A stretch of 64,000 bases of DNA. Origin: Buttiauxella sp. A111 (GTDB lineage: Bacteria > Pseudomonadota > Gammaproteobacteria > Enterobacterales > Enterobacteriaceae). The notes below the pieces were generated by a model that was not told the DNA's origin, ran no database searches, and saw nothing but the letters and a program-made list of their open reading frames with translations. Positions within the stretch are counted from its first letter, which is position 1. Every line of letters begins with the position of its first letter. Below, one piece after another: positions 51,613 to 55,883 of the stretch. Where the stretch lies: assembly GCF_014189855.1 (NCBI RefSeq), contig NZ_BJFN01000003.1, forward strand, positions 434,001-498,000, in the 5' to 3' direction. The position numbers were made by a program, and so were the translations under genes.

Positions 51613-52071
51613 ATGACCGAAATTCAGCGCCTGCTCACCGATACTATCGAGCAACTTAATACCGATGAAAAACGCGACAACCGTCCACGTTTTAGCATCA
51701 GCTTCATTCGCAAACATCCGGGCCTGTTTATCGGTATGTGGGTAGGTTGGTTTGCCACACTGTGGGTGATGCTGGAGTCGGACACCCTGGCAGGCTCGGT
51801 CTGGTTACTGGTGGTCCTGTTTGCACTACTGAATGGCTTCTTCTTTTTTGATGTGAACCCCCGCTATCGCTACGACGATATTGATGTGCTTGATTTACGC
51901 GTTTGCTACAACGGCGAGTGGTACAACACGCGCAACGTCCCATCGACGTTGATTGATAAAATCCTGCATTCCCCTGGTGTTGACGAACAACAAAAATCGC
52001 TACTGCATAAAATGGTTGCCACGAAAGGCGAACTCTCTTTTTACGATATCTTCTCACTCGAGCGTTCTTAA
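51613..52071 (+). CDS. ylaC: Inner-membrane protein YlaC
   Basis: 152 residues with two adjacent hydrophobic helices at about 36-75 ([34 protein letters not shown]) and a soluble C-terminal domain ending YDIFSLERS. It matches the E. coli YlaC family of unknown function. AGAAGG precedes the ATG at 51613; eight upstream codons are not conserved. A palindrome, AAGGGGCTTAAGCCCCTT (52091-52108), follows. Confidence 0.93.
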
Positions 52072-52090
52072 CCTTCCCGAGTTGTATAGA

Positions 52091-52108
52091 AAGGGGCTTA
52101 AGCCCCTT
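52091..52108. terminator. Palindrome between convergent ylaC and rpmJ2
   Basis: AAGGGGC-TTAA-GCCCCTT is perfectly symmetrical and lies between the two stop codons. It lacks a long T-run, so it is at best a weak shared terminator. Confidence 0.55.
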
Positions 52109-52111
52109 GTC

Positions 52112-52252
52112 TTAACGTCGCTTCTTCCCGCCCTGCACCGCTTTAAATCGCGGATTACTTTTGCAAATCACATACAGCCGTCCTTTGCGTTTTACAATCT
52201 GGCAATCCGGATGACGCTGCTTTGCATTGCGTAATGAATTCAGAACCTGCAT
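52112..52252 (-). CDS. rpmJ2: Zinc-independent ribosomal protein L36 paralogue (type B)
   Basis: 46 residues ([20 protein letters not shown] start, [10 protein letters not shown] end). It is the YkgO-type L36 that lacks the full zinc ribbon and replaces the zinc-containing L36 when zinc is scarce. A Zur-type palindrome lies 22 bp upstream of the start. In E. coli it is paired with rpmE2 (ykgM). Here no L31 gene is next to it, so it stands alone. AAAGG precedes the ATG. Confidence 0.93.
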
Positions 52253-52273
52253 AACCTTTGCTCTCATTTAAAT

Positions 52274-52286
52274 GTTATAACATAAC
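52274..52286. promoter_or_regulatory. Zur operator upstream of rpmJ2
   Basis: GTTAT-AAC-ATAAC within AAATGTTATAACATAACAAT matches the Zur palindrome (GAAATGTTATANTATAACATTTC type). It lies 22-34 bp upstream of rpmJ2 and predicts derepression under zinc limitation. Confidence 0.8.
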
Positions 52287-52482
52287 AATAAAATAAAGAG
52301 TGAACGGGAAAATTGCAAGCCCGTTTGCCAACAAAACCCTCCCTGGCGTCGATATCCAGATTCTGCAAATGCTTAGAACCCCAACTCGCCATAACTTAGA
52401 AGATAACAATATTGGGCGGCGAGACAGGCTTGCGGCAATGTCATTTCCACGAACACATCTTCATTCCAGAAAGGGATAAACC
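52287..52482. promoter_or_regulatory. Shared upstream region of rpmJ2 and the Cys-leader operon
   Basis: No gene is seen. Two inverted repeats stand out: AACGGG / CCCGTT around 52303-52324, and CTCGCC (52385-52390) / GGCGAG (52418-52423) enclosing an AT-rich core (ATAACTTAGAAGATAACAAT). The second is a candidate regulator site and/or -10 region for the plus-strand operon. No clear MetJ box (AGACGTCT repeats) is seen. CysB sites are too degenerate to call by eye. Confidence 0.45.
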
Positions 52483-52626
52483 ATGAATCAGCGCTGTTGT
52501 TGTCGAGGCAAATGTTGTTGTGCCAAAAAATCAGAATTCGTCTGGAAATTATTTGTCTTAAGCGGAGTTCATCATGAACCAAACAACGACCCAGGCCTTG
52601 CCAATACTCGATCTCTTAGCCCTTAA
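52483..52626 (+). CDS. 47-codon cysteine-rich leader peptide
   Basis: A short ORF starting MNQRCCCRGKCCCAKK, with six cysteines as two CCC runs all coded by TGT (52495-52503 and 52513-52521). AAGGGA lies 7 bases before the ATG, a good ribosome site. The frame runs on through SEFVWKLFVLSGVHH and ends at 52626, overlapping the first 53 bases of the oxygenase gene in a different frame. Consecutive rare-amino-acid codons ahead of a transport operon are typical of attenuation leaders: ribosomes would stall at the CCC runs when Cys-tRNA is low. A peptide function such as metal binding is the alternative. No homologue was checked. Confidence 0.75.
   Translation: MNQRCCCRGKCCCAKKSEFVWKLFVLSGVHHEPNNDPGLANTRSLSP
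52532..52570 (+). promoter_or_regulatory. Hairpin that can mask the operon Shine-Dalgarno
   Basis: GAATTC (52534-52539) can pair with GAGTTC (52565-52570), and CT (52542-52543) with AG (52561-52562), so the Shine-Dalgarno GGAG (52564-52567) of the oxygenase gene is buried. A competing hairpin, CAGA-ATTCG-TCTG (52532-52544), uses the same left arm and would free it. The left arm starts 13 bases after the second CCC run, within reach of a ribosome stalled there. No T-run follows, so control would act on translation. Stability was judged by eye only. Confidence 0.5.
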
Positions 52627-53611
52627 TGGCACCGCCACCGATAGTGCGGCATTTCTTAAACAATTACGCCATGCCGCTCGTGACATCGGTTTCTTCTACC
52701 TGATTAATCATGGTGTCAGCCCTGAGCTGCAACAGGCCGTTCAGAATGAAGCGCGACTGTTTTTCTCTTTGCCCGAAGAGGAAAAACAAAAAGTGGCGAT
52801 GATCAACTCCCCTCATTTTCGTGGTTACAACCGCGCCGCCAGCGAATTAACACGCGGCAAACCAGACTGGCGTGAACAGTTTGATATCGGCGCTGAACGC
52901 CCGGCACTTCCGATCAACGACGCGCAGCACGGTTGGCTGCGATTACAAGGCCCAAATCTGTGGCCAGAATCGTTACCGACTCTGAAACCTACCCTGTTGC
53001 AATTTCAGCGCGAAATGACCGCTGTCGCACTCAAACTACTGCGTACTTTTGCGCAGGCGTTAGAACTTCCAGCGAACAGCTTCGATAACCTGTACGGCAA
53101 TAAACCCAACGAACACATCAAGTTGATTCGCTATCCAGGCCTGCAGGCTACGGAGGGCAATCAGGGTGTCGGTGCCCATAAAGATTCAGGATTCCTGAGT
53201 TTCCTGTTGCAAGACCAACAGCAGGGTTTGCAGGTCGAAGTCTCGCCGGATAACTGGATAGATGCCGCCCCTCTGCCTGGTAGTTTTGTGGTGAATATCG
53301 GTGAATTGCTGGAGCTTGCCACCAATGGCTATTTACGGGCGACGGTACATCGGGTTATTTCCCCACCGCCGGGCCAGGAACGCCAGTCGATTGCATTTTT
53401 CCTCGGCGCTCAATTAGACGCTGTCGTCCCAGTTTATGCATTGCCGCCTGAACTCGCACAACACGCTCATGGGCCTGAAAGTGATCCTCGCAACCCGTTA
53501 CTGCGTGATGTTGGATGGAATTATCTAAAAGGTCGCCTACGTTCGCATCCCGACGTGGCGGAACGTTATTACCCGGATGTCTTGCGTAACAGCACTGAAC
53601 TCATCGCTTAA
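52574..53611 (+). CDS. Isopenicillin-N-synthase-like 2-oxoglutarate/Fe(II) oxygenase
   Basis: 345 residues. N-terminal DIOX_N-type domain (LPILDLLAL...RDIGFFYLINHGVS) and C-terminal double-stranded beta-helix with the Fe(II) triad H202, D204 (GAHKDSG) and H259 (TVHRV), plus the co-substrate pair R270/S272 (ERQSIAFF). The catalytic set is complete. The substrate is unknown. It is the first gene of an operon with a MetQ/N/I-like importer and follows the Cys-rich leader, so oxidation of an imported sulfur compound is a reasonable inference. AGCGGAG precedes the ATG. Confidence 0.88.
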   Translation: MNQTTTQALPILDLLALNGTATDSAAFLKQLRHAARDIGFFYLINHGVSPELQQAVQNEARLFFSLPEEEKQKVAMINSPHFRGYNRAASELTRGKPDWREQFDIGAERPALPINDAQHGWLRLQGPNLWPESLPTLKPTLLQFQREMTAVALKLLRTFAQALELPANSFDNLYGNKPNEHIKLIRYPGLQATEGNQGVGAHKDSGFLSFLLQDQQQGLQVEVSPDNWIDAAPLPGSFVVNIGELLELATNGYLRATVHRVISPPPGQERQSIAFFLGAQLDAVVPVYALPPELAQHAHGPESDPRNPLLRDVGWNYLKGRLRSHPDVAERYYPDVLRNSTELIA

Positions 53612-53629: not shown

Positions 53630-54439
53630 ATGAAAAATGCCTCTTTTAAACTGGCAGGGATCGCGCTGTCTTTGACTCTGGCTTTCAGCGCTCACGCAGC
53701 AGAAACCTTGCGCATCGCGGCTGATGCAGTACCCCATGCAGAAATCCTCGCGTTTGTGCAAAAGCTCGATCCGAATTTAAAGCTCAAAGTAGTTGAGTTG
53801 AGTAACGGCGTAAATGCCAACGAATTGCTGGCGAACGGCGATGTCGACGCTAACTATTTCCAGCACGTCCCCTATTTGCGCGATCAGGAAAAAGCGCTGG
53901 GTAAAAAATTCACCGTCGCGGCGACCGTGCATATCGAACCGCTTGGTATCTATTCACACAAATATAAAGACCTGAAGTCGGTTCCCGAAAACGCCACCAT
54001 TGCCCTGCCGAACAACGTCACCAACTTGAGTCGCGCACTCTATCTTTTGCAGGACAAGGGGCTTATCACGCTGAAATCAGAGTTTAAAGATGCCTCAGTG
54101 AATCAAGCCACGCCACGTGATATCGCCAGCAATCCTAAGAAGCTGAAGATCGTTGAGATCGAAGCACCACAACTGCCGCGTTCGCTCGATGATGTTGATC
54201 TGGCCGTAATCAATGGCAACTACGCGCTGGAGGCTGGATTAACGCCGTCGAAGGATGCGCTGGGGCTAGAAAGTGCGACGCACAATCCGTACGCCAATAT
54301 TCTGGTCACCAATCCAAACCTGGCTAATGATCCGCGAATCAAAGAGTTGGCGAAAGATCTGCAATCACCGCAGGTTGCTGAATTTATTCGCCAGCAATTC
54401 AACGGCTCAGTGATCCCGGTCGCCACTCCGCAATCATGA
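53630..54439 (+). CDS. NlpA/MetQ-family substrate-binding protein
   Basis: 269 residues. Signal peptide with signal peptidase I site (AFSAHA, cut near residue 23). There is no lipobox cysteine, unlike lipoprotein MetQ. It has a typical NlpA-family body ([54 protein letters not shown]). It binds an amino-acid-like ligand in the periplasm. Whether that is methionine, cysteine or a derivative cannot be told from the sequence. It is 18 bases after the oxygenase gene, and its stop overlaps the ATPase start. Confidence 0.9.
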
Positions 54440-55227
54440 TTACCCTCGAGCGGCTGAGCAAAGTGTACGCCGGAGCAGGCCAACCGGCACTGGACGATAT
54501 CTCGCTAACCGTACCGGATGGCGCAATCTACGGCATTCTCGGGCGCAGTGGCGCCGGGAAAAGTACCTTGATTCGCTGCTTAAACTTACTGGAACGGCCC
54601 ACATCGGGCCGTATTCTGATGAATGGAGTGGATATCACCACGCTTGATAACCGTGAATTGCGCACTCATCGCCAGCGCACCGGCATGGTGTTCCAGCACT
54701 TCAATCTGATTCATGCACGCACTGTGGCTGACAACATTGCCGTGCCGCTGGAAATCGCCGGCCAGCGGCGTGAGGTTCGCCAGAAACGCATTGCAGAACT
54801 GCTCGAGTTAGTCGGCCTGAGCGATAAAGCGCAGGCTTTCCCCTCACAGCTTTCTGGTGGGCAAAAGCAACGCGTCGGCATCGCTCGGGCGCTTGCCGCG
54901 CACCCTGATGTCTTGCTTTGTGACGAAGCGACCAGCGCATTAGACAGCGAAACCACCGCTTCTGTGCTGGCGCTATTAATGGATATCAACCGTAAGCTGG
55001 GCGTCACGATTGTGCTGATTACTCATCAACTGGAGGTCGTGAAAGCGATTTGCGATCACGCAGCGCTACTGGAAAACGGCAGGCTAGTTGAAAGCGGTTC
55101 ATTATCTGAATTGCTGGCTACCCCCTATTCCCGTCTGCGTCAGGCATTGCTGCCTGGCGACGCCGCCGAACAAGCATTTTTACGCCGGATTGGTGTATCC
55201 GGGAGAGTGTTATGCGAAGTCGCTTAG
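54436..55227 (+). CDS. MetN-like ABC transporter ATPase without sensor domain
   Basis: 263 residues. Walker [11 protein letters not shown]-loop [10 protein letters not shown], signature [15 protein letters not shown], Walker [13 protein letters not shown] and switch VLITHQ. Classical MetN is about 343 residues, with a C-terminal NIL/ACT domain that binds methionine and shuts the transporter. This product ends soon after the nucleotide-binding domain, so that feedback is missing. It overlaps its neighbours on both sides (4 and 16 bases). Confidence 0.92.
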
Positions 55228-55883
55228 CATGGGAGGATTTATGGTCATTACTGCTTGATGGCACCCTCGATACACTTTACATGGTCGGGCTTGCGGCGCT
55301 GTTTACCGTGATTATCGGTTTACCGCTTGGGGTATTACTGTTTCTCACTCGTCGCGACGGAGTGCTACCCGCGCCGGTCTTTAATCAGATTATTGGCAGT
55401 GTGGTGAATGTCGGGCGTTCACTGCCGTTTATTGTGCTGTTGATTGCCTTAATCCCATTCACTCGCATTATTATTGGCACCACGTTGGGCAGTACTGCGG
55501 CGGTGGTTCCCATTACGATTGGCGCATTTCCGTTTTTTGCGCGGGTAGTGGAAAACGCATTAGATGAAGTCGACAAAGGCCGCATCGAAGCCATTTTATC
55601 GATGGGTGGCAATGTCTGGCATATCATCGGAAAAGTGTTGTTACCCGAGGCGCTACCGGCACTGCTGGCGGGGATCACGCTCACGGTAGTGATGTTGATT
55701 GGGTTTTCGTCAATGGCGGGAGTGATTGGCGGCGGTGGACTGGGGGATTTGGCGATCCGTTACGGTTACCAGCGATTTAACGATCAGGTCATGGTCGGCA
55801 CCGTGGTGATTTTAGTGGTGATGGTGCAAATAGTACAAAGTGTCGGTGACCGTTTAGTACGCCGTCTGGCACACCGACGTTAG
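55212..55883 (+). CDS. MetI-like ABC transporter permease
   Basis: 223 residues with five hydrophobic segments and the permease EAA loop ([21 protein letters not shown]). It is the MetI type by length and by motifs ([42 protein letters not shown] in part). It starts inside the ATPase gene. It completes the importer with the preceding two genes. An imperfect hairpin follows. Confidence 0.92.

Follow-up and report, generated by a model that had tools for sequence, protein, structure and literature searches.

The window analyzed here, the whole 64,000-nucleotide stretch from Buttiauxella sp. A111, contains a short open reading frame (ORF) rich in cysteine codons that runs into the first gene of an oxygenase and importer operon. 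The features described below lie on the forward strand unless noted. The leader ORF (52483..52626), read from the sequence and conserved in orthologues, has 47 codons, begins MNQRCCCRGKCCC, and is preceded by a putative Shine-Dalgarno (SD) sequence, AGGGA (52472..52476), located six bases ahead of the ATG. Two runs of TGT TGT TGT specify cysteine: run 1 at codons 5-7 (52495..52503), which follows an Arg codon and is the counterpart of a conserved RCC(C) core, and run 2 at codons 11-13 (52513..52521), in which bases 52514-52521 make up the 5' arm of a predicted helix. The final 53 bases of the leader (52574..52626) overlap the oxygenase gene out of frame. A first-pass annotation of this DNA had described the 47-codon ORF with its ribosome site, both cysteine runs and the out-of-frame overlap, and each of these is present as it said. 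A CCC run within codons 2-14 of an ATG ORF arose in 0.085% of 20,000 dinucleotide shuffles of the 116 bases from -130 to -15 relative to the gene, and two CCC runs in one ATG ORF arose in none of 20,000 shuffles of the same bases. Two CCC runs occur solely in the window among 121 distinct upstream regions. An Rfam search of 52070-52900 gave no match up to E 1, and the incomplete PLSDB gene table has no entry for the leader.

The oxygenase gene (52574..53611) comprises 345 codons, is of the 2-oxoglutarate/Fe(II) type with Pfam DIOX_N and 2OG-FeII_Oxy domains, and has a GGAG sequence (52564..52567) as its apparent SD. It is followed by genes for a MetQ/NlpA-like substrate-binding protein (53630..54439), which scores under the NCBIfam MetQ cut-offs, a MetN-like ABC ATPase (54436..55227), which scores under the MetN cut-off, and a MetI-like permease (55212..55883), which scores over the PRK10782 cut-off and is the sole MetQNI-like gene to pass an NCBIfam cut-off. 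The best sequence match of the oxygenase in the PDB is 9ovh, named an ethylene/succinate-forming enzyme (E 9e-58), and its nearest named relatives are Buttiauxella oxygenases that are 90-92% identical. The operon is probably devoted to sulfur scavenging. A gene for type B ribosomal protein L36 (52112-52267, reverse strand) lies between a ylaC-like gene and the operon. Of 157 oxygenase relatives in named genomes, the best 80 were compared for gene content, and MetQNI-like genes follow the oxygenase in 55 of the 56 leader-bearing loci and in 22 of the 24 leaderless loci; by the latter count, the operon manages without a leader, for example in Erwinia, Pseudescherichia and Pluralibacter. In Sodalis sp. 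dw_96 (L063), the Cys leader and the oxygenase are present and the locus has no MetQ-, MetN- or MetI-like gene (tblastn, E 1e-10). Three oxygenase copies each carry one in-frame stop and are possibly pseudogenes (G035:C13:179222-180232, G119:C1:2895049-2896050 and G004:C1:2198225-2199220); the upstream regions of the G035 (L137) and G119 (L139) copies were read and contain no leader with CC or CxC. An oxygenase 45% identical to that of the window is encoded in MT835669.1:4595-5608, a 22 kb unannotated record named Bacteriophage sp. that is perhaps bacterial DNA.

To assess how widely the leader occurs, we read the regions upstream of 151 oxygenase genes, consisting of the best 80 of 157 relatives in named genomes, 70 from genomes of the family (one being the window's own gene), and the window itself. 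The oxygenase is present in 85 of 295 family genomes; 15 of these 85 places, mostly lower-scoring, were left out of the 151-locus set, and two of the 15 (G024 and G031) were read later and lack the leader. The 151 loci reduce to 121 distinct sequences between -90 and +3, where species held in both collections merge only when identical over that interval. A short ORF that begins at an ATG and contains CC or CxC among codons 2-12 was found in 78 of the 121 distinct regions, compared with a mean of 5.5 after dinucleotide shuffling, and one with CC proper in 74 of 121, compared with 3.3. The first-pass annotation had suggested looking for the Cys codons in orthologous loci, and there they are indeed conserved, with 76 of the 78 leaders in the same frame. 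An AGG, GGA or GAG site within the 13 bases that end 3 before the leader ATG is found in 25 of 27 sequence clusters. Judged from these sequences, this is a genuine leader ORF with a conserved Cys core.

Leader-bearing records belong to the Enterobacteriaceae, Pectobacteriaceae and Bruguierivoracaceae, with Klebsiella, Kosakonia, Kluyvera, Dickeya and Brenneria among the genera. The leader typically starts MRCCC in Kosakonia, Klebsiella and Raoultella, MQRCCC in Kluyvera and Trabulsiella, and MNQRCxC in Buttiauxella, and it takes the form MxxYRCC(C) in Brenneria, Symbiopectobacterium and one record titled Serratia marcescens. Leaderless oxygenase orthologues occur in Erwinia, Pantoea, Rouxiella, Pseudomonas, Pseudescherichia and Pluralibacter, among others. 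On a quick tree of 85 oxygenases, for which the tool warns of long branches, the leader label changes 6 times, compared with a shuffled mean of 23.6. Order-wide, the oxygenase was found in 28 of 295 genomes; none of the 25 loci read, 19 of them outside the Enterobacteriaceae by genome codes, has the leader (one truncated locus was skipped, and the start codon of L321 was not found). There was no DNA-level match in E. coli genomes by blastn, which a distant homologue could escape, and no match in viral contigs. Three loci of genus code g40 (L129, L130 and L143) have in the same place an upstream ORF reading MLI(I/L)RLYGCPVF or MFVIRLYCCPVF, with one or two Cys, which reads as a degenerate or unrelated leader; L143, which was counted as leader-bearing, is doubtful because L129 and L130 code YGC where it codes YCC.

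The strongest signal in these leaders is the conservation of their frame relative to the gene and of its freedom from stops. Leader ATGs lie 67-100 nt ahead of the gene ATG at eleven distances, and 76 of the 78 hold one frame relative to the gene (2 modulo 3) at nine of these; the exceptions, L096 and L128, take the remaining two. In the stretch from the Cys run to the gene start, the leader frame contains a stop codon at 4 of 78 loci, versus 55 and 46 of 78 for the other two frames, and the same count by clusters is 3 of 27 versus 20 and 18 of 27 (Fisher p 3e-7). Of the 78 leaders, 73 terminate inside the gene, at +32 to +62. Five end before or at the gene start (L041, L042, L093, L096 and L128), and three of them (L041, L042 and L128) have a further ATG, at -19, from which the same overlapping frame runs. 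Most simply read, selection has favored ribosomes that run over the gene start rather than end near it, and the read-through across the operon start claimed by the first-pass annotation finds support in the frame and stop statistics. At L096 (genus code g108), the frame of the Cys leader differs from that in its congener L102 and closes at -35; an ATG at -103 in L096 opens the usual overlapping frame to +53, and Cys codons and overlap seem uncoupled at this locus.

Folding predictions point to a second feature, in which the Cys codons, often together with a CUCC- or CCC-like stretch that directly follows, pair with the GGAG and AUG region of the gene. Examples are UUGUUACUCC with GGAGAUAACAA in Trabulsiella and GACUCC with GGAGUC in Brenneria, and at least 5 arm:start pairs are expected in 70 of 78 loci. 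Over the 27 clusters, the expected number of pairs between Cys arm and start averages 10.9 per cluster, compared with 3.75 after dinucleotide shuffling (Wilcoxon p 5e-8), 3.9 after synonymous recoding (p 1.5e-8) and 7.6 when start regions are swapped between clusters (p 9e-5). UGU repeats generally match AACAA-rich starts, which makes the swap the informative control; in this modelling it still leaves a smaller yet clear excess of pairing. Cognate arm and start duplexes are also more stable than permuted ones (p 0.0012). A single consensus fold for all leaders did not emerge from RNAalifold on five groups, which gave a helix in the Kosakonia group (-2.73), a partial helix in the Cedecea group (-3.21), six pairs in a Pectobacteriaceae-Sodalis group (-0.99), and no consensus in the Kluyvera and Buttiauxella groups. 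The reason is that the pairing register shifts between and within groups, and swap and permutation tests were therefore used. Covariation in the Kosakonia-Klebsiella group (13 rows, of which one, Phytobacter massiliensis, is misaligned) was not above shuffles: the single two-sided pair change was equaled or exceeded in 203 of 500, the covariation score was matched by 60 of 500, and the cells paired by 54 of 500. The case for the helix thus rests on predicted complementarity compared between groups.

The window's own copy is not typical in this respect. Its arm pairing, with the arm anchored on run 1, is among the weakest, at 4.0 expected pairs. Its best predicted structure pairs run 2 (52514-52521) with ACAACGAC in gene codons 4-6 (52583..52590; pair probabilities 0.97-1.0), a 3' arm also complementary to 52496-52503, and places the SD of the gene in a separate hairpin, whose 5' arm (52534..52539) pairs with 52565-52570 (pair probability 0.65-0.76). 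The hairpin over the gene's SD that the first-pass annotation had proposed does fold at these positions, but it is peculiar to the window, with 5.0 expected local pairs versus 0.1-1.8 in eight other Buttiauxella, and the pairing that is widespread is a different one. When a ribosome was modelled with the third core codon in its A site, the openness of the SD and AUG rose from 0.30 to 0.45 over the 27 clusters (p 9e-6, uncorrected, with 18 positions reported). The maximum there is broad: ribosomes at the Cys-core codons gave 0.42-0.45, and the gain spans ribosome positions from -2 to +6 relative to the first Cys and recurs at +10. For the window itself, the stall model left the SD and AUG no more open with a ribosome at the Cys codons. 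A helix between the Cys arm and the gene start is therefore, as modelled, likely for the group and uncertain for the window's copy.

We propose that the leader is a cysteine-sensing translational attenuator, with or without the helix, and we assign this reading, built on sequence comparison, a probability of roughly three in four. What we find is an SD-led upstream ORF that keeps codons for a single amino acid as the remainder drifts, and a predicted mRNA structure coupled to the codon run over the 27 clusters that is weak in the window and has no significant within-group covariation. With plentiful Cys-tRNA, leader ribosomes would pass the Cys codons and run over the ribosome site and start codon of the operon, occluding them, with no nearby stop from which to re-initiate; behind the passing ribosomes the Cys arm would pair with the gene start, and little of the operon would be translated. 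Under a shortage of charged tRNA-Cys, a ribosome would stall early in the leader, hold the Cys arm open, block further leader initiation and leave the downstream start free, so that the oxygenase and the MetQNI-like importer could be made and sulfur recovered. The direction, induction by shortage, is suggested by this geometry and by the methionine-family importer downstream. Both the cysteine response and the sulfur role of the operon are inferred. The fuller version, in which the tandem UGU codons both read the supply of Cys-tRNA and form an arm of the masking helix while the overlap adds occlusion and denies re-initiation, is in our judgment evenly balanced. If this double duty of UGU holds, the element would be a compact cysteine switch of the Enterobacterales that uses neither a terminator nor a conserved peptide.

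A sub-form of the attenuator dispenses with the RNA switch: occlusion would do all the work, and the match between Cys codons and gene start would be a by-product. The conservation of frame and stops, the strongest signal, is as expected from such pure occlusion, and the window and Kluyvera L049, L051, L052 and L054 show weak arm pairing or none. Pairing in the set nevertheless exceeds that of synonymously recoded leaders and swapped starts, and cognate arms and starts outperform permuted ones, so we consider occlusion without a switch a tentative alternative, possible but on the unlikely side.

Leader-driven attenuation of transcription, intrinsic or Rho-dependent, is classical for amino-acid leaders, and Rho has been suggested for mycobacterial cys leaders in passages of PMC1262725. 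A simple scan of 52270-52700 for intrinsic terminators found no terminator-like site, and the leaders leave little room for one since they start 67-100 nt before the gene and mostly overlap it. The same scan result, which bears on intrinsic terminators, and the lack of an Rfam element favor translational over transcriptional control, and we regard the transcriptional mechanism as improbable. No sigma-70 consensus promoter was found at the locus.

The translational attenuator also fits what is kept in the leader peptide. Synonymous-site conservation, which the first-pass annotation had suggested looking for, was not borne out: when related leaders of equal length were compared in 24 non-overlapping pairs, over an interval that begins at codon 2, includes the Cys run and closes 16 bases ahead of the gene, substitutions at codon positions 1/2/3 numbered 78/70/84, which gives no coding signal over the whole leader. 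At the codon level, 132 changes were non-synonymous and 41 were synonymous. Across the 78 leaders, the best core of three codons contains TGT 175 times, TGC 32, Arg 23 and others 4, although these counts describe the set and do not test it because the set was chosen for Cys; the frame, stop and codon-position counts are free of this Cys-based selection. Even changes over codon positions together with a Cys-rich core imply that Cys and, to a degree, Arg are kept while the remaining peptide drifts. The stall site had been put at CCC in the first-pass annotation, but what the leaders share is a Cys core and not a strict CCC, since the best core contains three Cys in 51 of 78 leaders and only two in 27. 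In 63 of the 78 leaders an Arg comes before the first Cys, which the attenuator account leaves unexplained and which counts against it.

This Arg speaks for another reading, in which charged tRNA-Cys is not the signal and the Cys-rich nascent peptide instead senses something else, such as a metal or oxidants, or RCCC acts as an arrest peptide. Against it, a nascent peptide of 3-8 codons would still be within the ribosome, and the first Cys of the leaders is at codon 3-8; moreover, the rest of the peptide carries no coding signal, and the importer encoded downstream belongs to the methionine family rather than to a metal family. There is precedent for a thiol-bearing regulatory product of an upstream ORF in the copper-sensing CXXC product CruR of Bordetella, as described in passages of PMC9426467. 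We nonetheless judge a signal other than charged tRNA-Cys quite improbable here. If the ORF instead encoded some small functional protein with no part in controlling the operon, its SD and start codon would be accounted for, but this is very improbable given the lack of codon-position bias, the variable ends, the overlap kept in one frame, and the lack of any Pfam or NCBIfam match.

Cys-run leaders have precedents, to which the present attenuator candidate can be compared. According to their title and to passages citing them, mycobacterial polycysteine leaderless short ORFs act as a cysteine-responsive attenuator (Canestrari et al. 2020, Mol Microbiol 114:93). They share with the enterobacterial leader the tandem Cys codons in a short ORF upstream of an operon, and, as far as those passages go, they differ in being leaderless, whereas the enterobacterial leader appears SD-led (an SD-like site in 25 of 27 clusters), has its Cys near the N-terminal end, keeps an out-of-frame overlap with the gene, and precedes an oxygenase and a MetQNI-like importer. 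Candidate leader peptides of actinobacterial cys/cbs operons, in the relevant passages of PMC1262725, likewise have Cys codon runs and no conserved terminator hairpin; in contrast to the enterobacterial runs near the start, theirs are near the stop codon. The closest match in architecture, by analogy and as far as those passages of PMC1262725 describe it, is the actinobacterial LEU element, where a codon run for the regulated amino acid is also proposed to pair with the SD of the gene, although it involves leucine codons, a candidate pseudoknot and leuA rather than Cys codons and an oxygenase gene. The uORFC-8-2 before cysS of Rhodobacterales, as presented in parts of PMC8632094, has two tandem conserved Cys codons as well; it is a predicted transcriptional attenuator with a terminator stem and U run and with UGC dominant at codons 14-15, whereas in the enterobacterial leader no terminator was found (52270-52700), UGU dominates and Cys is near the start. 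A Pseudomonas sulfur-starvation paper (PMC12581299) contains none of the terms sought. The first-pass annotation knew of no enterobacterial case, and the open-licence literature, searched by titles and abstract openings with most subscription journals outside it, yielded none. Cys-run leaders were known before from actinobacteria, and the SD-led, start-overlapping enterobacterial form is most likely a new variation.

Control of the enterobacterial sulfur supply is credited to CysB and Cbl and to O-acetylserine and sulfate signals. If our reading is correct, a conserved Cys-codon leader would extend this control to translation, where cysteinyl-tRNA would be sensed directly. The leader would further link an uncharacterized oxygenase-MetQNI operon to cysteine shortage, making the substrate searchable, and would provide a small testable system for occlusion versus unmasking.

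Other poly-Cys ORFs in the same genome were sought by four pattern searches, two of which listed about 100 of 162 and about 100 of 123 matches, with 30 loci fetched from each, and two of which were complete, with 26 and 30. Among the matches listed, with genes judged by eye, there was no second poly-Cys leader before a sulfur gene. A few other intergenic Cys ORFs look like chance, with no recognized sulfur gene downstream; these include MRCCCFI before a gene taken by eye for ferritin, and a 39-codon ORF with no gene right after it (L195, L171). Among the SD-preceded hits in the two complete lists, the only intergenic in-frame CCC ORFs are the leader and a 9-codon ORF, MSMLCCCTS, at G000:C2:481419-481442 on the reverse strand (L277), just upstream of a gene that by eye reads like TrpR; it is probably chance. 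A screen of 60 relatives, with 30 loci fetched among the matches listed, gave one leader orthologue (L239) and one other intergenic ORF (L237). The operon and leader also occur on a plasmid of Klebsiella pneumoniae (NZ_CP091979.1:93716-103729, L297), where the leader reads MRCCCARTQ... and begins 73 bases before the gene. This plasmid is 280 kb in length, and the operon there adjoins hpxE, cupin and LysR-family genes.
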